Positions 7,039 through 50,007 of a stretch of 64,000 nucleotides of DNA are shown piece after piece. The notes under the pieces are model-generated. The model was not told the origin of the DNA and searched no databases. It was given only the letters and a program-made list of their open reading frames with translations. Within the stretch, counting starts at the first letter, position 1. Every line of letters starts with the position of its first letter. Source of the DNA: Ferroplasma acidiphilum (lineage in GTDB: Archaea; Thermoplasmatota; Thermoplasmata; Thermoplasmatales; Thermoplasmataceae); NCBI RefSeq assembly GCF_002078355.1, contig NZ_CP015363.1:1612001-1676000 (forward strand), given 5' to 3'. A program made the translations under genes and the position numbers.

Positions 7039-8004
7039 TTAATAGGCATGTGTCATCCCCCTCATAATATTGTAATTAACTACCTTAAGAGCTAATTCCT
7101 GTACAATATACTCTATTTTCTTAGCTTTAATTACCTCTGACATTACTCTTTTTAATCCTGAAAAATATATTTCCACGAGCCATCTTTTACCATAGCTATT
7201 ATTCTCCTTCCACTGTTCCATGGAGTTCTTTTTTATAAATCTTACAATCTTAGCCCTTGCAGGTGATCCTCTGAATTCAGTAGAAGCATTCTTCCTGGGA
7301 GGTATTATTGCATTATATCCAAACATATTGTAGATATATTTGGAATCATATCCCCTATCCCCAAAGAGCCTTAAAATATTATTTTTCATTTTACTCAATA
7401 GTTTTCTGGCAGCCTTAGAATCATGTGTATGCTCATCTGTAATTGTGAATGATAATACAGTAACATCTTTTAATGATATTATTACATGTAATTTTATCCA
7501 TCCTCTCCTTTTCTTATGCCATTTATGCCTTAAATAATCCCCTCTTATTGTTATCTTAGAGCCAGTAGAATCTATAATGCAATCCAGCTTACTGTTAATA
7601 TTATTCAATTCAGGTTTGATTCTCCTTATCCTCCTGAATATTTCACTATATGATATTGATTTTATATTAGCTATAATTGCTAAGGACCTTAACACCCCTT
7701 CAAGTGACCTGAAAGGTATACTGAATATAGATCTTAATCTCGCTAAATATATTATCAATGCATCAGGAACTTTGTATGGATGGCCTATTTTACCATTATT
7801 TTTTTCCTCCAGCAGACGATCATTATCCTTTATGAATGATAGATCTGCAAGGTATTCTATTCTATCTGCAAGGTATTCTATTCTATCTACAAGGTATTCT
7901 ATTCTATCTACAAGTGATTCATTATACTTTCCCCATCTCCTGTTAGAACCGAGCCAGTACCTTTTTATACTTCTATTTATTTTATTATTGATTTGTGGAG
8001 TCAA
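7039..8004 (-). CDS. IS5-family DDE transposase
   Basis: A 321-residue transposase that should cut and rejoin the ends of its element. The DDE triad is visible: D in CIIDSTG, D in GDRGYDSKY, and E in RWLVEIYFSGLKR, the last within the IS5/IS4 C-terminal signature. The N-terminus contains a tandem heptad (L-V/A-D-R-I-E-Y repeated three times with a partial fourth), which would lengthen a helical segment before the catalytic domain. The reading frame is intact, so the element may be active. Start ATG at 8004; the stop is inside the terminal inverted repeat. Confidence 0.92.
   Translation of the reverse strand: MTPQINNKINRSIKRYWLGSNRRWGKYNESLVDRIEYLVDRIEYLADRIEYLADLSFIKDNDRLLEEKNNGKIGHPYKVPDALIIYLARLRSIFSIPFRSLEGVLRSLAIIANIKSISYSEIFRRIRRIKPELNNINSKLDCIIDSTGSKITIRGDYLRHKWHKKRRGWIKLHVIISLKDVTVLSFTITDEHTHDSKAARKLLSKMKNNILRLFGDRGYDSKYIYNMFGYNAIIPPRKNASTEFRGSPARAKIVRFIKKNSMEQWKENNSYGKRWLVEIYFSGLKRVMSEVIKAKKIEYIVQELALKVVNYNIMRGMTHAY
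7843..7914 (-). repeat. 21-bp tandem repeat inside the IS5 transposase gene
   Basis: About 3.4 head-to-tail copies of a 21-base unit (ATCTGCAAGGTATTCTATTCT on the plus strand; the third copy has one changed base). Because the unit is seven codons, copy number changes keep the frame and add or remove one heptad of the encoded protein. Confidence 0.9.
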
Positions 8005-8575: not shown

Positions 8576-8938
8576 CTATGAATGGGGTAATTTACCTTTC
8601 TTTGATTCCTTTACTCTCAATATTATAAATCCCGCCAGACCAATTAATAACGATATAACACCATATATCACAACCAGCATGTATCTTCTGGATTGTATCG
8701 AATTGTATTCAAAAACTCTATCCGAGTAGGGGTATCCTATTACAATAAGAGTTATAGCAATTATTCCAGACGCGAGAATTATAAATAGAGTAAAATATTG
8801 CCCGGATTTTGACCAATCGGATCTGTGTCTACGGAATGAAATAGTTAACGAGATTGAAAGTACAGCAAAGATAATTATGAAATATATAAAAAATGCTATG
8901 TTAGGAGTATAAATATTGCCAAACATTAACTCACCCAA
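8576..8938 (-). CDS. Small three-helix membrane protein, possible partner or immunity protein
   Basis: A 120-residue protein with three hydrophobic segments (about 14-34, 48-68, 88-108) joined by a basic loop (SFRRHRSDWSKS) and ending in a charged tail. It overlaps the secreted-protein gene upstream by 13 bases on the same strand, so the two are very likely co-transcribed and translationally coupled. I recognise no family. The size, topology and position resemble immunity proteins next to bacteriocin genes, but this is inference from context only. Confidence 0.7.
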   Translation of the reverse strand: MGELMFGNIYTPNIAFFIYFIIIFAVLSISLTISFRRHRSDWSKSGQYFTLFIILASGIIAITLIVIGYPYSDRVFEYNSIQSRRYMLVVIYGVISLLIGLAGFIILRVKESKKGKLPHS

Positions 8939-10041
8939 TTATTTTCACCATATTTGTTCCCCAGATAATGGACATAAGACGAAAAATATCCACTTATGAC
9001 TACGCCTGGCACTCCACCAAAAACTCCAAGCGGTGTATTTTGGAATATTGTAACAGTGTTTCCATTGGAGAGATGCCCGTAAAATCCAATGGAGGAAGCT
9101 AAACTACCGACAACTGTTATCCATGGATAATAATAATCATTCATCATATATGTCCATATATATTTATTTCCTGATGGTTCATTGGCATATGTTGATTCAT
9201 ACAACTTTGTCATGGCGTCATCAATATGCATAATTACAAGTCCAGCCACTATACCAACTACTGCACCAACAATGGTACCAACTGGACCGCCCCAAGAACC
9301 ACCTATTGCACCGGCTAATACATATCCTGTAAGACCAGATGCAGCGGCACCACTTGCAATCCCATCCAGCGTCATGTACTTTTCAAAACTATTATACTCT
9401 TTCTGTGCTGTACTACCAGCCCATAGTTCGTTAAAATCATCCTGCTCACCATAAGTTACAGTCCATCCCCCAAGCCACCAGGGTGCATGGTATACGAAAT
9501 AGTTAATAGTTACCATAACCCATGTTCCACTATCTGATGAAACACCACCGGGAAGGTCTGCCATTATATTTAAGACATATGACATAGAGTCTTTTCCATT
9601 TATTACAGATGGAACTTTGTGCCCTGAATGCAGTATAGATTCTATTGAGCTCACTTCCATCTTGTTGCTTTTATTAAAGGATGATTTTTCATTAGCTGTA
9701 AGCTGTGATATGTATGCCTTTCCTGCTATTGACTGGTTAATGTATTGCATAAATAAAGATTGTCCGGTAGTTGATGATATCTCAGGAAGGTTTTCTTTAA
9801 CATGGTTCTTCATGTACCAGCTAGAGAATGATACTGCAATTTTATTTGATAGGTTTGAATTTGTTGTGGTAGTGGGTTGTGATTTATTTACAACATATTT
9901 GCCAATAGCTACCTGGGGAGAAATATTCCCTGGTGCTTTATTGCTCTGAACTGAATGTATATTGTCTGCCACAGGGACAAATGCGAGTATCACAAATATT
10001 GCTGCCATTAATACACCTATTATTATCCTCTTTTTATTCAC
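8926..10041 (-). CDS. Secreted precursor with glycine-zipper segment (archaeocin-like candidate)
   Basis: A 371-residue protein of no recognised family. Residues 1-25 form a Sec-type signal (KKR, hydrophobic core, FVPVA). A Thr/Asn/Ser-rich pro-like region follows to about 160, then an aromatic stretch (APWWLGGW), and a long glycine/alanine-rich hydrophobic segment at about 227-270 containing GAIGGSWGGPVG, the pattern of pore-forming class II bacteriocin peptides. The C-terminus is aromatic and polar. The leader closely matches that of the secreted protein at 33533 (KR then GVLM then IF then F-P). The small membrane protein downstream overlaps it. Function as a toxin or a surface protein is undecided. 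Confidence 0.65.
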   Translation of the reverse strand: MNKKRIIIGVLMAAIFVILAFVPVADNIHSVQSNKAPGNISPQVAIGKYVVNKSQPTTTTNSNLSNKIAVSFSSWYMKNHVKENLPEISSTTGQSLFMQYINQSIAGKAYISQLTANEKSSFNKSNKMEVSSIESILHSGHKVPSVINGKDSMSYVLNIMADLPGGVSSDSGTWVMVTINYFVYHAPWWLGGWTVTYGEQDDFNELWAGSTAQKEYNSFEKYMTLDGIASGAAASGLTGYVLAGAIGGSWGGPVGTIVGAVVGIVAGLVIMHIDDAMTKLYESTYANEPSGNKYIWTYMMNDYYYPWITVVGSLASSIGFYGHLSNGNTVTIFQNTPLGVFGGVPGVVISGYFSSYVHYLGNKYGENNWVS

Positions 10042-16140: not shown

Positions 16141-17052
16141 TTACCATCCCCCATAACATGCATTACCAATCAGATATGTTTGATAACCTATCAAACCTAT
16201 AGATAGACTTAAGCCTAGAATGAAAAGAGCTATGGCCGCTCCTCCGGTTATCCCAGTGGAAAGAGCTAGACCTCCTAACATTGCTACTACTCCCATTAAT
16301 TCAACAACAAGAATCGTTATTGATACTATGCATCCCCAACTCCAGTCTATTGCTATTGCACTTGTTTTATCTACAACTATATTTTTTACATTATTATTTG
16401 TAAATCCTAACATAGTATTCATTGCTATAGCAATGTATGAATATTCTATGCCAAATTTATTTAATGTACTGTTGCCGGAGAACATATAATTAAATGCAAC
16501 CAGTTTAACATCGCCTATCAGTGATTTCATTTCATTACTATACGTGCCCTTATAATTCAATGTAAATTCATTGCCTAATAATATCTTTGATGAGTTTATG
16601 GGAACTATGTTTGCATATATATAAGATATCTTATTATTATTTTCATTTGCTATTATATCAGCTATTTCTACTTTATAATCTTTGAACTTTTCTGTAAATG
16701 CTATTGTATACTTTATAGTGGAATTATTATAATACTGTAATAGATAATTTGAATTGTTTGATTTAGTATAATTGTATTGATATGCTGTTATACTATTATT
16801 TTTTATATCATTGTTATTATAATTATATATGTTGTTTATGGAAGTTTTGTTTATATTAGCTGGTATTATTGTGCCATTGTTAGAATCAATAAAATTGTTC
16901 ATAAATGTAATGTTCCCGAGTTTAACATAATTATTATTTGATTTGGCATCATTAATATTGTTTATATAATTAGTATTGGCAGATGAATATGCAATCATAA
17001 TAAACATAGTAGCAATCAGTACCGCAACTAGTGCTACATACTTTTGCTTCAT
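16141..17052 (-). CDS. Secreted precursor with hydrophobic C-terminal two-cysteine domain (archaeocin-like candidate)
   Basis: A 303-residue protein. Residues 1-25 are a signal peptide (MKQKY, hydrophobic core, SSA). Residues about 26-230 are very rich in Asn and Tyr with many sequons. The last 68 residues change character sharply: DWSWGC (Cys241), two glycine-rich hydrophobic helices including GGLALSTGITGG, and a terminal NACYGGW (Cys299), a pattern like a cleavable membrane-active peptide. The frame extends to 17121, but a TATA element (GTTTATATATTTTTT) 25-40 bases before 17052 and the signal peptide there favour 17052. No family recognised; antimicrobial function is a hypothesis. Confidence 0.65.
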   Translation of the reverse strand: MKQKYVALVAVLIATMFIMIAYSSANTNYINNINDAKSNNNYVKLGNITFMNNFIDSNNGTIIPANINKTSINNIYNYNNNDIKNNSITAYQYNYTKSNNSNYLLQYYNNSTIKYTIAFTEKFKDYKVEIADIIANENNNKISYIYANIVPINSSKILLGNEFTLNYKGTYSNEMKSLIGDVKLVAFNYMFSGNSTLNKFGIEYSYIAIAMNTMLGFTNNNVKNIVVDKTSAIAIDWSWGCIVSITILVVELMGVVAMLGGLALSTGITGGAAIALFILGLSLSIGLIGYQTYLIGNACYGGW

Positions 17053-17687
17053 AATAAATATAATTCTAAAAAATATATAAACTATTCGATATAGTAATAG
17101 TTCAATGGTTTGAATTAACATGGAGTTAATATGGCTTTAAATTTATTTTTGTTTCAATAGGATTTCTGTACAGTGTAAAGATGTGAAAAATACTATGGAC
17201 TATCTGATACTTTCCATTATGTAATTATTGATCTTATTGACCTTTCTGACTTATTGTTTGCAGGTCGATTTTATTACAAATCGAAATCTATCATCCTCTT
17301 ATGCCTTAACTGGTTGTTTACAAAATCTCTGGATTTCTTTCATTCATATGGTGTATCTATATGGATGAAATTTTCATTCAATGATTTTTATATGATTCTG
17401 TAACGTTTTCATGCGCCCGTTTAGTATTTCCTTTGCCTTATTGTATATCTATTTCAATGTATTATAGATATATTCACTGGCGTGCTCCATTTATTATTTA
17501 GATAGTTATCAAGTCGAATATTGGGATAATATAATGGGTAAATTTACAGCAATAGCAGGCCAGCATTAGTAATGACCATTCTATAACTCATTTAGAACAA
17601 ACTGCATATAGCAAAATAATCTTGAAGATTTCGGAGATAAAGAAAAATTAATTGAAATAAAAAATAATATTAAAAAACACAGATAAT
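17053..17687. other. 635-base intergenic stretch, no gene seen
   Basis: Holds the promoter of the precursor gene at its left end (TATA-like run near 17078-17092, read leftward). The rest is AT-rich with no open frame of substance, no tRNA-like fold and no repeat matching the window's IS ends. Confidence 0.5.
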
Positions 17688-32202: not shown

Positions 32203-33360
32203 ATGGATTTTTCATTAAGTGATGAACAGAAACTGCTAAGAAAAAATACTGCAGAGTTTTTAGAAAAGAATTTAAAGCCTTTTGTCAGGGAAATAGACAA
32301 CAATGGAGAAATTCCTGTTGAATTTTTCAGGAAAGCTGGAGAAAATGGCATTATTTCACCATTAATAAAACTGAAATATGGTGGGCCAAGCCTGTCATTC
32401 ATGGATTCGGTAATTATATCTGAGGAAATAGCCAGGATAGATACCAGTATGGCAACATCTGTATACTATTTATTGAATACTTCATGGGCATATGTACTCC
32501 AGAAGTATGGAAAACAGGAACTTAAGGATAAACTGTTGCCAGAAATAGCGAATGGAAGCAGGTTTATCGGCATAGCATCTACAGAACCGTCCGGAGGGAG
32601 TGATGTTGCGAATATCACAACAACGGGAAGAATAGAAAATGGAAAGGTAATTATCAACGGAGAGAAGATGTACATAAGCGGCGCAGTGGAAGCCAAAAAG
32701 AATGGAGGCGGCCACCTTACTCTTGTTAAAACAAAGGAAGGAGTCGGGCATAAAGGGATAACAATGGTATATGTCCCTGCTAACGCAGATGGCATTGAAA
32801 TTACAAAATTAAATAACATGGGCAGGATGGGTATTTCTACCTCAGGGATAAAATATACAAATGTGGAAGTGCCCGAAGAGAATATAATAGGCGAAATAAA
32901 CGAAGGATTTTACTATTCCATGGATGGGTTTAACCATGCACGTATAATGGTAGCTGCAGCATGCAACGGATTATCTTACAAAATGCTGGAAGAGGGATTG
33001 AACTACATTAAGGAAAGGAAAGCATTCGGGAAACACCTCAGCGACTTTGAGGCCATATCATTCGAAGCTGCAGATTTAAGAACGGATATAGAAATGGCAG
33101 CACTGTTAAACTACAAAGCTGCATACCTTGCAGATGTGGAAGACCCCGATTTTTATATATATAGCTCTATGTCCAAGCTTAAATCTCCCCAGATAGCAAT
33201 GGATACGACAAAAAAGGTAATGATGTGGTTCGGTGCTTATGGCTATACAAAGGATTCAGGAATAGAGATGGCTGCAAGAGGAATATTCTCCTATCTTGTT
33301 GGTGCAGAAGGGGCATTGAATATCATGAAAGTTATTATATCTAAAGCAATTTTGAAATAA
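32203..33360 (+). CDS. Acyl-CoA dehydrogenase
   Basis: A 385-residue flavoenzyme that should introduce the alpha-beta double bond in an acyl-CoA and reduce ETF. Three domains are recognisable: helical N-terminus (LSDEQKLLRKNTAEFLEKN), central beta domain with IASTEPSGGSDVANI (flavin binding), and C-terminal helical domain with RKAFGKHLSDFEAISF. The base is probably the glutamate in VGAEGALNIMK, equivalent to the family's EGT position. FixCX in this window would carry its electrons to quinone. Chain-length preference is not predictable. Confidence 0.92.
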   Translation: MDFSLSDEQKLLRKNTAEFLEKNLKPFVREIDNNGEIPVEFFRKAGENGIISPLIKLKYGGPSLSFMDSVIISEEIARIDTSMATSVYYLLNTSWAYVLQKYGKQELKDKLLPEIANGSRFIGIASTEPSGGSDVANITTTGRIENGKVIINGEKMYISGAVEAKKNGGGHLTLVKTKEGVGHKGITMVYVPANADGIEITKLNNMGRMGISTSGIKYTNVEVPEENIIGEINEGFYYSMDGFNHARIMVAAACNGLSYKMLEEGLNYIKERKAFGKHLSDFEAISFEAADLRTDIEMAALLNYKAAYLADVEDPDFYIYSSMSKLKSPQIAMDTTKKVMMWFGAYGYTKDSGIEMAARGIFSYLVGAEGALNIMKVIISKAILK

Positions 33361-33532
33361 TTATTTTATATTATTGACAGCTATTCATATTTACGGACAA
33401 CTATATTCAATACCTTAATTATTCTGATAATTCAAACCACTGAACTCCCCCAAAATATCGATAAATCATTTAATAATCAATTATTTACTAGTATTATTAT
33501 CGTAATATATATATTGATGTGTTAATATCACT

Positions 33533-34120
33533 ATGTATATAAAGAGAATGGTAGCAGGTGTATTAATGGTAGTGATATTTACTATGATTTTATTCGCCCC
33601 TGCAATAAGCAGCGGCTATATGGGGAGCAATCAGGTTCAATTGCCGGATTCCCCCATAATATGTACTCAGCATAGTAATTTGATTATTGAAACAAAAAAT
33701 GTATCGTCAGGTCTATTTAGTTCTGTTAACTCGATCGACACAGGATATTTCAATGTCACACAAACCTATTATTATAATTATCACGACCTGGAACATGATA
33801 TTGCATGCAATGTATTGGGAAAGGTAACCGGGAACACAGGAGGTTGTACAATAATTACACAACAGTTCAGTTATGTAATCACGGCTTCAAATTCTACCGG
33901 GACTTTTAAGGAGTATAACGGATATGTAGTAATGAAAAATCTAGGGTTTAGCTGGGGTGGTTCCTATACACACAATTACGTTGCAATGAATGTAAATCTT
34001 GAGATTTATAGTAATGGAGATGTATTTATGCAATATTCCATAGCCTATAGCAGGACACCATCTGAAATCAGTATGGCATTTATAGACATAACTGGTCTGG
34101 TAAAAAATATGGATTGTTAG
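33533..34120 (+). CDS. Secreted cysteine-containing protein, first gene of ABC-transporter operon
   Basis: A 195-residue protein with a signal peptide (residues 1-27; KR, then GVLMVVIF, then APAISS) closely like that of the precursor at 8926-10041; 14 bases of the leader coding region are identical (33556-33569). The mature part is Ser/Thr/Tyr/Asn-rich with sequons and four cysteines (44, 92, 105 and the C-terminal residue 195), suggesting disulfides. No family recognised. The next four genes, closely spaced or overlapping, encode a membrane protein, an ABC ATPase, a permease and another membrane protein. It may be the exported product of that system. Confidence 0.7.
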   Translation: MYIKRMVAGVLMVVIFTMILFAPAISSGYMGSNQVQLPDSPIICTQHSNLIIETKNVSSGLFSSVNSIDTGYFNVTQTYYYNYHDLEHDIACNVLGKVTGNTGGCTIITQQFSYVITASNSTGTFKEYNGYVVMKNLGFSWGGSYTHNYVAMNVNLEIYSNGDVFMQYSIAYSRTPSEISMAFIDITGLVKNMDC

Positions 34121-34128
34121 GTGCATAG

Positions 34129-34959
34129 ATGAAGCGAAGAACAATATTTATGACTGTAATTGCTATCTTAATAATATTAACAGCCAGTATTATGATAGCT
34201 GTTATAGACAATGTCTCCAGCGAGGTTGACGTAGAAAAGCCTTCGCCTGCAACAAATGGTGCATACTTTGTATATAGCTATACATCAGAGTTACGCTGTA
34301 AATCATTTCCGAGTAATTCTATATACAAAAATGAAACACTTAAGCATGGGGATTTATATATAAATGGTCGTGTGTATATAAATATTACCGGATCTTCTGC
34401 AGTTTTTCATAGTTATTTATGTAACTCTACAGGAACCATTATAGCAAACAGAACATTTTCCGAGCCATTAAACGGAACTATATTTACGGCTATGTTTCCA
34501 GAGGAAAACCACATCAATACAGGAAATATTGTGATATTCGGCAATAATGTGATAGCAATAAAAGGAATGTATACAACATGCCCCTCTTCACATTATGTAG
34601 TTAATTATGGAAAAAAGCAGGTTCAATATATACCATATATTGGCAAGATCGAATCACTAACGGATGTTATACAGGATTACAATTATAGCCTTTTTAATTA
34701 TGCAAATTTTATACAGTCAAGGGGATATTCAATACTGTCTTCAATATCGATTCCTGGAAATTCCAGCATAGCTGCTATGATACAGGACAATATCGGCATC
34801 AAGACATCATGGTTTACAATGAAACTTGACAGAACAAACGTAGGGATAACTGCTATAAATTATATATCCTATATTGAAAAGTATACAATAGTTTATGCGG
34901 TGATATGGATAATCGGCATAGGATATTTAATTTCCATAAAGGTAAAAAAGAAGAGATAA
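34129..34959 (+). CDS. Double-anchored membrane protein with outer domain
   Basis: A 276-residue protein with an N-terminal membrane helix (about 5-27), a large sequon-rich outer domain (about 28-245, three cysteines) and a C-terminal helix (about 248-268) followed by a short basic tail (KVKKKR). No family recognised. Such topology suits a receptor, an export accessory protein or an immunity factor. It starts nine bases after the secreted-protein stop and ends two bases before the ATPase ATG. Confidence 0.7.
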   Translation: MKRRTIFMTVIAILIILTASIMIAVIDNVSSEVDVEKPSPATNGAYFVYSYTSELRCKSFPSNSIYKNETLKHGDLYINGRVYINITGSSAVFHSYLCNSTGTIIANRTFSEPLNGTIFTAMFPEENHINTGNIVIFGNNVIAIKGMYTTCPSSHYVVNYGKKQVQYIPYIGKIESLTDVIQDYNYSLFNYANFIQSRGYSILSSISIPGNSSIAAMIQDNIGIKTSWFTMKLDRTNVGITAINYISYIEKYTIVYAVIWIIGIGYLISIKVKKKR

Positions 34960-34961
34960 TA

Positions 34962-35813
34962 ATGGATGGAATATACTTTGGCAATGCAACCAAGAAGTTC
35001 GACGATATAACTATATTCGAAAACTCTACATTCAGAGTTGATAAGGGAGTTACACTTTTAATCTCCCCAAATGGTTCCGGCAAAAGCACAATTATTTATT
35101 TAATAATGGGAAATTACCGCATTAACTCAGGGGAAATATACGTTAACGGCTATAATCCAGTGAACAATCACAGACTGGCTTTTTTAAATACATCGTTAAT
35201 GCCTGAGAATCCAGTATATTTTGGTTCCGGGACTGTCAGGGAACATATTAGCCTGTTTTCTCGCTTAAAAGGAGTGGCCAGTTCCGAAATATATGGATTT
35301 TTGTCATATTTTAAGATGGAACATATTATAAATTCAAGGATATCTTCCTTAAGTATGGGAGAGGCACAGATACTGTACATATCATGTTATTTATCAGGAA
35401 ACTATAAATTATATATATTTGATGAGCCAAATTCTAACCTTGACCAGCCAAACAGGAGGAGATTCGCTGAAGCTGTAAAATTAAAGCAATTAAATTCTAA
35501 TTCTATATTTTTGATTACAAGCCACATAAACGATGAATTAAACCAGCAGGCAAATCAAATATTAACAATTACAGGAAATAAAGTCAGGGCATTTTACAGG
35601 GATGATATAAATATAGCCTACGCCCTGAAATTTTATGACATTAAAACTGTGGAGGGGAAATTAAAAGGATTAAAACATTTTATGGTTAACGATTCAATAG
35701 TCATTAAGAACGCTTCAATAAGGGATATAATAGACGTTATACCTGAAAGCAATATAAAGGAAATTACCAGAATTCCTCCTGCGATGGTTGAGTATTATGA
35801 GAATCAAAAATAA
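34962..35813 (+). CDS. ABC transporter ATP-binding protein
   Basis: A 283-residue ATPase. Walker A is SPNGSGKST (35-43), the signature LSMGEAQ (130-136), Walker B LYIFDEP (150-156), and the switch histidine is in LITSHINDE. The usual Q-loop glutamine is not evident (the region reads LNTSLMPENP). A C-terminal extension of about 60 residues follows the core. The frame extends upstream to 34905, but the ATG at 34962, two bases after the previous stop, matches the family start. It should energise the permease encoded next, for export or for self-protection. Confidence 0.9.
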   Translation: MDGIYFGNATKKFDDITIFENSTFRVDKGVTLLISPNGSGKSTIIYLIMGNYRINSGEIYVNGYNPVNNHRLAFLNTSLMPENPVYFGSGTVREHISLFSRLKGVASSEIYGFLSYFKMEHIINSRISSLSMGEAQILYISCYLSGNYKLYIFDEPNSNLDQPNRRRFAEAVKLKQLNSNSIFLITSHINDELNQQANQILTITGNKVRAFYRDDINIAYALKFYDIKTVEGKLKGLKHFMVNDSIVIKNASIRDIIDVIPESNIKEITRIPPAMVEYYENQK

Positions 35814-36558
35814 TCTTATGTCTATTATTTTCCAGGACTTTGACAGCAGGTATTTCATTGAAATAATACTAATAATAGGCATATGTGCAACTGTATATTT
35901 CAGTTATATTCAATCTATATCCATATCGCCGCATTTAAATTTTGGTTACCCTGAAATTGGTGTGTTATTTTTTTTCAAGCAATATTTGTATTATGCATCA
36001 TATCCGTTATTCACTATATTTTATATTGTTACAATAGTTATTTCATCCTATGAAGTATTTTTATTTTCTTCGTCTATAGTACGAAATAAATTTCTTGTTA
36101 TGTATTCTATGGGATTCAGAAAGAATTCTATAATACTTTCATATTTTATTCTATTTGTTATTTATCCCCTACTCATATTATCCATTTCGTATTTTGTAAT
36201 CTCCTACGTAGATTTTTTCTCAATAGAATATTATATAATATGGCATCTGGTACTGTTCACTTTTATAAGTTTGATGTTTTTTATAAGTATAGGCATGGTA
36301 TTATCCGCAATAACAAAAAATTTATTGATCCCGGGTGCTTTCATTATAATATTCTTTTATTTTCTGGTACCGCTTGTATACATAAGGCCACAGAACACAA
36401 TATTATACCATGTGGTTGATCCTGTATACGGCTATCTAAATTACGGCTTTAACCACATTACTTTTATTGGTGTTATAATAGAAGTATTGCTTTCTTTAAT
36501 GTTTATATTCCTAACCATGCTGATAGCACGGTATAGAGATATGAAGGTGGTGAGATGA
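35797..36558 (+). CDS. ABC-2-type membrane permease
   Basis: A 253-residue protein with six hydrophobic segments (roughly 19-40, 60-82, 108-128, 150-172, 180-200, 220-242), the layout of small ABC-2 export permeases. There is no ATPase motif. The start is uncertain: a TTG at 35788 and this ATG are both in frame, and both overlap the ATPase gene. It ends with an ATGA overlap to the next gene. Partner of the ATPase at 34962. Confidence 0.75.
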   Translation: MRIKNNLMSIIFQDFDSRYFIEIILIIGICATVYFSYIQSISISPHLNFGYPEIGVLFFFKQYLYYASYPLFTIFYIVTIVISSYEVFLFSSSIVRNKFLVMYSMGFRKNSIILSYFILFVIYPLLILSISYFVISYVDFFSIEYYIIWHLVLFTFISLMFFISIGMVLSAITKNLLIPGAFIIIFFYFLVPLVYIRPQNTILYHVVDPVYGYLNYGFNHITFIGVIIEVLLSLMFIFLTMLIARYRDMKVVR

Positions 36559-37124
36559 ATTATAAAAGCCTGTTACGCATATTTCTTATATTATTAGTTA
36601 TTTTTGCTGTATTAATTACCTCTATTCCCTTTGCAAACCATTATGATAATTCATTTACTCTTAATACCAAAAACAACATAACTGAAAAATACAATGGAAC
36701 AACACACTACATAATTCAGGGGCGATACTATTCAGCATTCTTCAGAACATATGGAGGTAAATTGAAATTAATGCCGGACACCAGCATAATTGAAAATGGG
36801 CAAAACTATACGATTAATAACTGTGTATCAATTTATTCTGTTAGTCTGCATTATAATAATTCAACTGGCCATAAAATTTTTGAAAAAAATATTCTAAACA
36901 CAGTAAATGTAAATTTGACAGCCGGATATTATATGATAAAATATAATTCGACACTAACAATTTATGGAAGGGAGAACTCCAGTCAGGTAAATAAATTAAA
37001 TCTTATAGTTGTTGATCCGCCGGGAAATTATGCAATGATGGCCATTATTTACATTTTTGCCATACCAACAGCAGCCACTGGCATATTATCAGGAATTTTA
37101 TATAATAAAAATAAACATAAATAA
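36555..37124 (+). CDS. Double-anchored membrane protein, last gene of ABC operon
   Basis: A 189-residue protein with an N-terminal helix (about 7-27), an outer domain rich in Asn, Tyr and sequons, and a C-terminal helix (about 158-180) with a basic tail (NKNKHK). Its layout repeats that of the 276-residue protein two genes upstream, though the sequences are not obviously alike. It overlaps the permease gene by four bases. No family recognised; an accessory or immunity role is a guess from context. Confidence 0.7.
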   Translation: MNYKSLLRIFLILLVIFAVLITSIPFANHYDNSFTLNTKNNITEKYNGTTHYIIQGRYYSAFFRTYGGKLKLMPDTSIIENGQNYTINNCVSIYSVSLHYNNSTGHKIFEKNILNTVNVNLTAGYYMIKYNSTLTIYGRENSSQVNKLNLIVVDPPGNYAMMAIIYIFAIPTAATGILSGILYNKNKHK

Positions 37125-37357
37125 TGGTAAGTCAATAATTATCTTGCATATATTCCATTATTTAAAGTTTTATTGATACGGAGTAAATAACACAACAGTC
37201 TACATTTAACATTTTCAGAAAGTGTAGAGATAAATATCTTAAATTCAGGATTTATCTGATATTGCCAGGGCGCATATTTTAATTCTTACCTGATTTGCAT
37301 TTAGATTAAATATTGTTCCAGGCATTATAGTTATATCATTCCATCATATATTCATCA

Positions 37358-38191
37358 ATGTTTAAAGAGAATTTACTGAAAGATAAGAATATCCTGATTA
37401 CAGGCGGAGGAACAGGCCTCGGAAAACAGATGACAGAAACTTTCCTGAAATTAGGTGCTACAGTATCAATAATTAGCAGGAAAGAAGAGCATCTTACCGC
37501 TGCAAAGGAATATTTTAATAATATGGGATACAAAATTGAAGCTGTGAAATGCGACATAAGGAATCCTGATGAGATTAAAAACGCAGTGGATTTAATAGAA
37601 AGTAAAACAGGGAAAATTAATGTTTTAATAAATAATGCTGCGGGAAATTTTATCAGCAGGACAGAGGACCTAACTCCTAAGGCGTTTGACACTGTAATGG
37701 GGATTGTTTTACATGGGACAGCATATGCTTCACTGGAAATGGGGAAAAGGTGGATCTCTAATTCCATGAAGGGAACAATACTGAGCATTGTGGCAACATA
37801 CGCCTGGACAGGTTCCGGATATGTGGTGCCATCAGCAATATCCAAGGCCGGAGTTTTAGCCCTTACAAGGTCACTTGCAGCCGAATGGGGACATAAGGGA
37901 ATAAGGACTGTTGCAATTGCCCCTGGAGCATTTAAGACTGAAGGAGCATGGTCAAGGCTTCTCCCTGGCGATGATTATGAAAAGCAGCTCATATCAGGAA
38001 ACCCTGAAAGGAGGCTTGCAACAAAGGAAGAAATAGCTAACATAGCTGCCTTTCTTATCTCGGACATGGCATCCTATATCAATGGAGAAGTTGTTACTGC
38101 TGACGGAGGGCAGGCATTATATGGCTCCAGCATGTTCAACATGATGGAAAGCCTTCCTGATGATATATGGAAAATGATGAGACAAAGGTAA
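37358..38191 (+). CDS. SDR oxidoreductase, 2,4-dienoyl-CoA reductase-like
   Basis: A 277-residue short-chain dehydrogenase. The cofactor motif is TGGGTGLGK near the N-terminus and the NAAGNF motif follows. The active region resembles mitochondrial 2,4-dienoyl-CoA reductase rather than common SDRs: ATYAWTGSGYVVPSAISKAG places the tyrosine before the TGSG loop with the lysine in SKAG, and PGAFKTEGAWSRL matches the same family. It would help degrade unsaturated acyl-CoAs with the acyl-CoA dehydrogenase 4 kb upstream. Substrate is inferred; NADPH use is likely but unproven. Confidence 0.85.
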   Translation: MFKENLLKDKNILITGGGTGLGKQMTETFLKLGATVSIISRKEEHLTAAKEYFNNMGYKIEAVKCDIRNPDEIKNAVDLIESKTGKINVLINNAAGNFISRTEDLTPKAFDTVMGIVLHGTAYASLEMGKRWISNSMKGTILSIVATYAWTGSGYVVPSAISKAGVLALTRSLAAEWGHKGIRTVAIAPGAFKTEGAWSRLLPGDDYEKQLISGNPERRLATKEEIANIAAFLISDMASYINGEVVTADGGQALYGSSMFNMMESLPDDIWKMMRQR

Positions 38192-39220: not shown

Positions 39221-40745
39221 CCTTAACTCTTCATTTTTTACGTAATATGTCCAGGTCTACCCCTAATTTTGATATGAGTTCCTTTGCCTTCTTCGGTATT
39301 TCGCTTACCATCTCAGTTTTCCCTGTACTGTATATTTTTATCCTGGAAAGAATGAGTAGAATATCCCTCACACTGTATTTTCCATCTATCGTGTTAAGTA
39401 CCTGGAAATGCAGGTAAAGTGAGAGTAAATTCAAAAACATGTAGGATGAAAGCATGTGATCATCTCGGATATATGATCTATCTGCTTCAAGGTCATTCTT
39501 GTATACATTGAAAGCGTATTCAACATATTCACGTTCTTTGTACAATCTGTATATCCGTTCCGGTTCATCAATAATATCGGATAAAAGGTAAAGCTTTCCA
39601 AAATCACCGGAATGATCGTAGTATGATGATTTTGACCTGATATTGTCATGGATTCTTATGAGGTAGTCCCTCTCCTCCTCTGATTTCAGGACAGGGTCTT
39701 CGAATACATATACACCATTCTCAGGCTTCCAGTACTTCACAGGCTTTCCATTGTACATGAAAACATTAAGGAAATCACCGCTTTCCGGTATAATGGAAGA
39801 ATTCCTCCTCAATGGTATGATGTAGCTAAGATGCCTCCTCTTCAGCTTTTTAATATTGTCTGCGGAGAAGAAGCCCTTATCTGCTACTATAACGCATCTT
39901 TCCACGCCTGCTATGTCTATTGTATTTGCCATAGCTGATACATCCCTTATTGAGCCTGGAAGTATCCTTATGAATGTGGGTACAGTCCTTGTTGATGAGA
40001 ACAGCATCATTACATTGATCTGTGGAAGGTGTATCTCCTTTGAATTATGGCCAGGCTCAAGGAATGATATGTTCTCTGACCTGGAGAATATTGCTGTTGA
40101 ATCCATTAAAACATACTCGCCCTTTTCTGTGAGCTTTCTCATTACTGCTACCATGCCTTCCTGTGGCAGTGATGACAGCATTCCTGAAATGGACCCGGGA
40201 GACATGGATTCATTATACATTCTTGAAAGGTATGTTTTCTCATATAGATACCTTAAGGACTTCATTGGTAGCGGCTGTATATCCCTGAGTATTACATATA
40301 TTATTATCCTCTCATACATATATGGAAATACCTGCTTCAGTACCGGGAGTATTGTCTTCCCTGCTATTCCATACAACAATGCAATATTTCCATATTCATA
40401 GTCCCCACTTATGCCTGAAACATCGCTTTTCTTTATTATTCCAGCAGGTGTTACAACCCCAAGGTATTTCCCTGTCACTTTCTTTGCCCTTTTTAGATCC
40501 TTATCATACCTGCTTGATGATTCATATGCATAATACCTGTCACCGAACCTCCTTATCTCTATCCCCTTCCCCTTATGTTTCAATACCCAATCTGGCATAT
40601 TATTCATATAACGTATATATACGTAATATGTATATAAATATTTCTCTAATCAAATGTGGTAATAAACCCGGTAAAACACTAACTTACTATTACATAGATG
40701 GAGAGAGAAAATGTGACATATAACGTAAAAAACTAAGAGTTAAGG
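39221..40745 (-). mobile_element. IS4/IS1634-type insertion sequence inside the MFS gene
   Basis: The element of 1525 bp is bounded by 23-bp inverted repeats (39221-39243 and 40723-40745) beginning CCTTAACTCTT, differing at two positions. It is flanked by the 6-bp direct repeat GTTAAG. It carries one intact transposase gene on the minus strand. A palindrome, ACGTATATATACGT (40611-40624), lies just upstream of the transposase start, near its promoter. Perfect target duplication and an otherwise intact host gene suggest a recent insertion. Confidence 0.92.
39231..40607 (-). CDS. DDE transposase, IS4/IS1634-like
   Basis: A 458-residue transposase with a Transposase_11-type catalytic domain: D in YVLMDSTAIF, D in CVIVADKGFF, and E in REYVEYAFNVYKNDLEAD, which is the E-containing C-terminal signature of the family. 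The N-terminal quarter (KKVTGKYLGVVTP) is typical of IS1634/ISL-like proteins. The frame is intact. Start ATG at 40607 or, three codons later, 40598. Confidence 0.9.
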   Translation of the reverse strand: MNNMPDWVLKHKGKGIEIRRFGDRYYAYESSSRYDKDLKRAKKVTGKYLGVVTPAGIIKKSDVSGISGDYEYGNIALLYGIAGKTILPVLKQVFPYMYERIIIYVILRDIQPLPMKSLRYLYEKTYLSRMYNESMSPGSISGMLSSLPQEGMVAVMRKLTEKGEYVLMDSTAIFSRSENISFLEPGHNSKEIHLPQINVMMLFSSTRTVPTFIRILPGSIRDVSAMANTIDIAGVERCVIVADKGFFSADNIKKLKRRHLSYIIPLRRNSSIIPESGDFLNVFMYNGKPVKYWKPENGVYVFEDPVLKSEEERDYLIRIHDNIRSKSSYYDHSGDFGKLYLLSDIIDEPERIYRLYKEREYVEYAFNVYKNDLEADRSYIRDDHMLSSYMFLNLLSLYLHFQVLNTIDGKYSVRDILLILSRIKIYSTGKTEMVSEIPKKAKELISKLGVDLDILRKK

Positions 40746-49025: not shown

Positions 49026-50007
49026 TATATTGTCCCGTAAATATTTCCTATATATACCCTCTAAAAATATAATAAAAGAATATAAGCCCAGAATGAAGTT
49101 AAATGAGAAAAAAATAAAATATATAATAAGGGAGAAAAATAAGAGAAGATCATCTACAGAAATAGCTAAGGAAATGAAAATAACAACAAGGTATGTAAAT
49201 TACATATACAAAAAATACAGGGATAATGGAGAATATACAATAGGTAAAAGGAAACATAGGGAATTAAACAGCAAGGATATAGAAATAGTTAAAAAAATAA
49301 GATATGAATACCCTATGTCAGGACCTGAAAGAATAAGGAAATACCTTAAAAGAAAGGGGATAATAATAGCTAAAAACAATATATACAGAATACTGTTATT
49401 ATTAAATATGGTTGATAACAGCAATAATAAGAAGAAACAGAGAAAATATATAAAATATGAGAGGAAACATAGCAACTCACTATGGCATATGGACTGGACT
49501 AAATACAGTGACAGTGAGAAGTTAATAATAATAGAAGATGATGCTTCAAGGTTCATAGTAGGAATGGGAATATACGGTGAGGAAACAATAGATAATACAA
49601 TAGAAGCACTGGAAATAGCAATAAACACTTACGGTAAGCCTGAAGAGATATTAACAGACCATGGAACACAGTTCTTTTCAAATGGTAAGAATGGAATACC
49701 TGGAGATCACAATAAGTTCCAGGAATACTTAGATAACAGTAATATAAAACACATACTTGGAAGGGTAAAACACCCTGAAACAAATGGAAAACTGGAGAGA
49801 TTAAACTATACCATAAAACGTTTAAGGCCATATTTCAGTACCTGGGAAGAGGTAGTATACCATTACAACTATGAAAGGATGCATGACTCACTGTCAGATG
49901 GTGATAATATAGTTACACCAGCAATGGCATATAAAAATAAAATGGTGGTAAAATGAAAAAATATAAATTCATACAGTATATAAAGGAAATAATAATGGGA
50001 CAGTACA
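49026..50007 (+). mobile_element. IS481-type insertion sequence inside the ACS transporter gene
   Basis: About 982 bp, with imperfect terminal repeats (TATATTGTCCC at 49026-49036; the complement of GGGACAGTACA at 49997-50007). The host sequence AAATTTATAACGTAG occurs on both sides (49011-49025 and 50008-50022), a 15-bp target duplication within the range known for IS481 elements. It carries one intact transposase on the plus strand, opposite to the host gene. Confidence 0.88.
49093..49956 (+). CDS. IS481/IS3-like transposase (rve integrase core)
   Basis: A 287-residue transposase. N-terminal helix-turn-helix segments (SSTEIAKEMKITTRYVNYIY, then PMSGPERIRKYLKRKGI) precede a retroviral-type integrase core with D in WHMDWTKY, D in ILTDHGTQF and E in NGKLERLN. 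Absence of a second orfA frame favours IS481 over IS3. The frame extends upstream to a TTG at 49030 inside the terminal repeat, but the ATG at 49093 is the likelier start. Intact. Confidence 0.9.
   Translation: MKLNEKKIKYIIREKNKRRSSTEIAKEMKITTRYVNYIYKKYRDNGEYTIGKRKHRELNSKDIEIVKKIRYEYPMSGPERIRKYLKRKGIIIAKNNIYRILLLLNMVDNSNNKKKQRKYIKYERKHSNSLWHMDWTKYSDSEKLIIIEDDASRFIVGMGIYGEETIDNTIEALEIAINTYGKPEEILTDHGTQFFSNGKNGIPGDHNKFQEYLDNSNIKHILGRVKHPETNGKLERLNYTIKRLRPYFSTWEEVVYHYNYERMHDSLSDGDNIVTPAMAYKNKMVVK

Follow-up and report, generated by a model that had tools for sequence, protein, structure and literature searches.

A five-gene ABC transporter cassette of Thermoplasmataceae as a candidate archaeal conflict system

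Introduction

In the lactococcin 972 cluster, a Sec-exported beta-sheet bacteriocin is encoded together with a membrane protein that has a large outer part and with a dedicated ABC transporter. To our knowledge, very few weapons have so far been described from acidophilic archaea. Sulfolobicins (sulA/B/C) and the B310/C108 toxin of SSV9 are reported as secreted proteinaceous archaeal toxins that carry signal peptides and are active on relatives (PMC3718332, PMC8628083), and a survey of a related archaeon's genome with standard tools found no bacteriocin or secondary-metabolite loci (PMC10354927). Here we analyse a locus on the chromosome of Ferroplasma acidiphilum Y(T), which an earlier reading of the DNA (henceforth the original prediction) had interpreted as a secreted-peptide production and self-protection system, with surface-polymer export as an alternative.

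Results

Layout of the cassette

The window (i.e., the whole stretch of 64,000 nucleotides that was analysed) contains five tightly packed genes on the + strand at 33533-37124, in the order secreted protein, double-anchored protein, ABC ATPase, six-TM permease and double-anchored protein:

33503..33515, + strand: TATA-like box (TAATATATATATT), 18-30 bp 5' of the gene 1 ATG, by sequence inspection
33533..34120, + strand: gene 1, 195-residue secreted protein with signal-like helix, beta domain and cysteines 44, 92, 106 and 195
34129..34959, + strand: gene 2, 276-residue double-anchored membrane protein, beta ectodomain probably outside (AlphaFold model, sequon enrichment)
34962..35813, + strand: gene 3, ABC ATPase of 283 residues (PF00005, alignments, PDB profile match)
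35797..36558, + strand: gene 4, 253-residue permease with six helices, resembling ABC-2 permeases solely in size and partner
36555..37124, + strand: gene 5, 189-residue double-anchored membrane protein, ectodomain rich in glycosylation sequons
33361..37357, no strand: accessory insert between an acyl-CoA dehydrogenase (32203-33360) and an SDR (37358-38191), given as the interval between these flanking genes; BLAST comparison leaves the insertion boundary approximate

Genes 3/4 and 4/5 overlap, while the spacing between genes 1/2 and 2/3 is 2-8 bp. The starts given for the ATPase (34962, 283 residues) and the permease (35797, 253 residues) are most likely better than the mechanical ORF starts at 34905 and 35788. 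Given the TATA-like box 5' of gene 1, the tight packing and the GGTG-type ribosome-binding sites seen by inspection before genes 2 and 5, the layout suggests a single leaderless transcript beginning at gene 1. Judged from sequence, the window also holds three transposase-like ORFs, at 7039-8004 (- strand), 39231-40607 (- strand, 3' of the cassette) and 49030-49956 (+ strand).

The secreted protein

In protein 1, the sequence MYIKRMVAGVLMVVIFTMILFAPA forms a signal-like helix, and four cysteines occupy positions 44, 92, 106 and 195, the last being the final residue, as originally predicted; C44 and a cysteine at or adjacent to the C-terminus are retained in all six complete Ferroplasma-type homologues. 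The Sec-like signal is followed by a beta domain of ~165 residues, so that the product is not a small peptide. In the AlphaFold (AF2) model this domain is a long-strand beta-meander with seven strands of 9-20 residues, predicted with moderate confidence (pLDDT 77, pTM 0.62). Protein 1 matched no Pfam or NCBIfam family, substrate-binding proteins included, and neither a profile search of the PDB nor Foldseek returned a significant match to a solved structure or a toxin fold. The Foldseek list consisted mostly of pore-forming proteins in their hairpin form (complement C9, CDC-like, gasdermin), none of them significant. With E-values of at least 0.009 and TM-scores of at most about 0.2, we do not take this resemblance as evidence of homology to pore-formers; the list tells us no more than that the model of protein 1 contains long antiparallel hairpins. 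A search of viral contigs with gene 1 found no relative.

Across lineages, the gene 1 products form several groups that can barely be aligned with each other. A common plan unites most of the products that are not of the Ferroplasma type: a cytosolic, mostly acidic leader of ~15-50 residues, then a hydrophobic helix, in many cases a Gly-rich stretch, a beta-like domain and finally a C-terminal helix. One clade ends in SGGG, and the Ferroplasma type keeps one cysteine near each end of the mature domain. The acidic leaders (e.g., in L051, L055, L089 and L108), most of which have a net charge of about -1 to -5 ahead of the helix, are the opposite of a normal Sec signal, whereas the Ferroplasma type starts basic.

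Two further secreted proteins were observed in the window. One, of 371 residues (8929-10041, - strand), has a Gly-zipper hydrophobic C-terminal region and is followed by a 120-residue multi-TM protein (8579-8938, - strand); five more places in the genome share just its N-terminal 37-197 residues, while some matches in other genomes share just the C-terminal half. The pair has a polymorphic-toxin-like layout, comparable to SSV9 B310/C108 (PMC8628083). The other (16144-17121, - strand; 326 residues) is Asn-rich, ends in a ~60-residue hydrophobic Gly-rich region with two cysteines, matched no Pfam or NCBIfam family and is bacteriocin-like in appearance.

ATPase, permease and double-anchored proteins

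The ATPase is the sole member of the cassette to match Pfam or NCBIfam (PF00005, 67.4 bits against a cut-off of 25), which agrees with the original placement of the non-ABC parts outside known families. Its motifs comprise Walker A, LSMGE, Walker B (FDEP) and an H-loop, a C-terminal extension of ~75 residues follows, and among 27 aligned relatives Walker A, LSxGE, DEPN[SA]N[LVI]D and the H-loop are all intact. The lack of a Q-loop glutamine, noted originally, was confirmed: the position is occupied by Glu (E82), invariantly in 27 of 27 homologues. To judge from these alignments, the Glu is a family trait of an ATPase that still belongs to the ABC superfamily, and the idea of a defective enzyme was rejected, since only the Q-loop residue differs, invariantly, and all catalytic motifs are intact.

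The best PDB profile match of the ATPase was ABCA3 (8e-47). In NCBIfam its best match by E-value was the lantibiotic-protection ABC family TIGR03740, at 78.7 bits against a cut-off of 309.75, and scores also fell far below the cut-offs for the phenol-soluble modulin exporter PmtA (NF047565; 64.5 against 350) and the lactococcin 972 ABC family TIGR03608 (61 bits against 254.85). We read this ranking as shared ABC sequence and not as specific membership. Proteins 1, 2, 4 and 5 did not match the lactococcin 972 bacteriocin and immunity models TIGR01653 and TIGR01654, and on these comparisons the system lies outside every bacteriocin-transport family tested. The permease has six predicted helices and an ATPase partner, with no sequence match in Pfam, NCBIfam or the PDB; the original assignment of an ATPase holds, and an ABC-2 type for the permease is suggested solely by its size and its partner.

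As had been predicted, a single helix lies at either end of protein 2 and likewise of protein 5. Both tails of protein 2 are basic and probably cytosolic, with a beta ectodomain outside, and its AF2 model is a confident TM-beta-TM form (pLDDT 85.5, pTM 0.82) for which Foldseek found nothing significant. Proteins 2, 4 and 5 matched no Pfam or NCBIfam family, singly or as homologue sets, and no solved structure significantly. N-x-S/T sequons were strongly enriched in the ectodomains of gene 2 (201 observed against 122 +/- 10 expected) and gene 5 (197 against 75 +/- 7), in contrast to gene 1 (61 against 64), the ATPase (76 against 62 +/- 7, i.e., little enrichment) and cytosolic control proteins of the window (48 against 46). 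Because of this enrichment relative to controls, both ectodomains are most likely outside and glycosylated. A search of 32 gene 2 homologues and 28 of gene 5 detected no Wzz domain (polysaccharide co-polymerase), and the gene 2 ectodomain is predicted to be mainly beta. Profile similarity between proteins 2 and 5 or 1 and 2 lies mainly in their N-terminal hydrophobic segments, and we do not claim common ancestry for either pair. A search for protein 2 on plasmids gave no match. Three-gene clusters encoding N-anchored large extracellular proteins with a weakly gene-2-like N-terminus were seen in G005 (L106:3182-6523 and L107:2226-5503).

Distribution, mobility and variation

The ATPase profile was rejected as a tracer across genomes because DEPNANLD is common in unrelated ABC ATPases and its matches were mostly bacterial; the distribution was traced with the gene 2 profile. 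Matches were found in 25 of the 77 genomes of the family Thermoplasmataceae, spanning 11 of its 19 genera, with 2-4 copies in several genomes and up to four or five gene 2 matches per genome, some of them fragments. No match appeared outside the family among 300 genomes of the class and 390 of the phylum (both draws including family members). From 41 regions fetched around gene 2 matches and some weaker matches we obtained 20 complete loci, all with the order 1-2-3-4-5 on one strand, which bears out the predicted operon of five adjacent or overlapping genes and their co-occurrence. Since this one order recurs among differing neighbours, the unit comprises the five genes, and on this comparison chance does not account for the layout.

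Seven loci, one in each of six congeneric genomes and one more on another contig of G008, have the acyl-CoA dehydrogenase and the SDR about 100-475 bp apart, i.e., the site is empty; G005 and G006 have the empty site here and cassette remnants elsewhere. The F. acidiphilum cassette is 55-69% identical per gene to that of G025, a genome of another genus (EF-2 89%), and 29-53% to that of its congener G007 (EF-2 92%). Between G014 and G013/G091, which belong to different genera, the cassettes are 74-89% identical, against 77-78% for EF-2, with a synonymous divergence of just 0.33-0.45. The simplest reading is horizontal transfer of an accessory, mobile cassette.

Median identities over the 20 loci were 16, 21, 29, 18 and 16% for genes 1 to 5, and the divergence of genes 1, 2 and 5 is correlated (rank correlations of 0.49-0.58). 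One close pair had a gene 1 dN/dS of 0.78 against 0.21-0.39 for genes 2-5; in most pairs the gene 1 value resembles those of the other genes, and among the Ferroplasma-type loci the evolution of gene 1 does not outpace that of genes 2-5. Genes 2-5 are intact in four loci that lack an intact copy of gene 1: it is absent from L054 and L088, frameshifted and separated by an ISL3 transposase in L053, and truncated and cut off by a DDE transposase in L092. In L054 and L088, genes 2-5 have a pairwise dN/dS of 0.10-0.41, in which the branch after gene 1 loss is not isolated. Judged from these loci, no other part of the cassette is as dispensable and variable as gene 1, and the resemblance of the four loci to orphan immunity is suggestive, not decisive. 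Loss in the reverse direction also occurs: in G005, genes 3-5 are gone and an intact pair of genes 1-2 lies beside a Mutator-type transposase, and in G006 gene 1 persists while genes 2-5 decay.

Discussion

The explanation that we favour, at about an even chance of being right, is an archaeocin-like effector with a dedicated ABC protection or release complex, carried as a horizontally mobile conflict cassette. It is favoured because mobility, patchiness, multiple copies, a divergent secreted product, a dedicated pump and survivors without gene 1 occur together, each of these lines being weak by itself. Protein 1 would be a Sec-exported beta-sheet effector, possibly membrane-active, and the doubly anchored proteins 2 and 5 would hold beta ectodomains at the outer face, where they could bind effector arriving at the membrane of the producer itself. 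They would then hand it to the ATPase-permease pump (proteins 3 and 4), whose extrusion or release of the effector would protect the producer, and strains with genes 2-5 but no gene 1 would be immune non-producers. Of the original prediction, the conflict element fits the co-occurrence, gene 1 loss, transfer and patchiness, while its secreted peptide has become a folded-size domain and its self-protection reading has to contend with the absence of toxin or immunity homology among the cassette proteins. G005 and G006 count against a simple version, since it is hard to see how a producer could do without the pump unless protein 2 is protective by itself.

The main rival is surface-protein or surface-structure assembly, in which protein 1 would be a variable surface or adhesive subunit, proteins 2 and 5 scaffolds, and the pump an exporter of lipid, glycan or peptide for assembly, the variation reflecting pressure from viruses or partners. 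Sequon-rich double-anchored ectodomains, a predicted beta-rich protein 1 and the pump-less gene 1-2 pair of G005 would all suit it, and variable surface genes also move horizontally. We nevertheless think it less likely: no polymer, glycosyltransferase or lipid gene recurs beside the cassette in the loci read (neighbours, which differ among loci, were judged by size and helix content and a few by family search), four loci have lost or broken gene 1 with the remainder intact, and the gene 2 ectodomain is beta-rich without a Wzz-type Pfam match. The surface-polymer export raised originally is likewise less likely, as polymer genes were not seen nearby and the ectodomain is beta-rich.

A transporter for uptake or efflux of a small solute (metal, lipid or drug), with protein 1 as an accessory binding protein, would agree with an ATPase nearest to ABCA lipid exporters in the PDB profile search and with faint, statistically insignificant resemblances of proteins 1 and 2 to lipocalins; given that protein 1 matches no substrate-binding family in Pfam or NCBIfam, that gene 1 is hypervariable and dispensable and that the cassette is accessory, we regard it as improbable. 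Peptide signalling or sensing, in which protein 1 or a fragment of it would be a released signal and the pump and ectodomain proteins would release or perceive it, seems less probable still. The dedicated secreted product with its transporter, the joint divergence of genes 1, 2 and 5 and the acidic leader of some gene 1 products are what it would lead one to see, against which stand a cassette free of regulators and kinases, a protein 1 of full folded-domain size and a patchy, multi-copy distribution.

The conflict cassette can be put in a stronger form, i.e., a new class of archaeal antagonism in which a Sec-exported, pore-forming-like polymorphic beta effector is met by four-subunit ABC protection with double-anchored glycosylated capture ectodomains, shuttled among Thermoplasmataceae; this we offer tentatively, as a rather doubtful extension. 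A conserved, mobile five-gene cassette in cultured strains, with non-ABC parts that are unrecognisable, would make archaeal strain-versus-strain conflict directly testable, and would explain how such loci escape searches of the antiSMASH or BACTIBASE type.

Among described systems, sulfolobicins and the SSV9 toxin, set against protein 1 by description only, differ in that the available text of PMC3718332 and PMC8628083 describes no ABC transporter alongside them. As in LanFEG (TIGR03740), a dedicated ABC exporter adjoins the gene of a putative secreted antimicrobial; unlike LanFEG, the cassette has no lanthipeptide genes and one permease gene in place of two, and adds two double-anchored ectodomain proteins without a family match. 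Its ATPase resembles ABCA/NatA-type (type V) exporters in its best profile match, to ABCA3, and in its C-terminal extension, and Glu in place of the Q-loop Gln also occurs in ATPases of that type, whereas the permease is recognised by no model and the two double-anchored subunits are extra. With the lactococcin 972 cluster it shares the layout of a secreted beta product, an outer-domain membrane protein and an ABC transporter. By analogy, the system may work like a known bacteriocin-ABC immunity cluster without being one.
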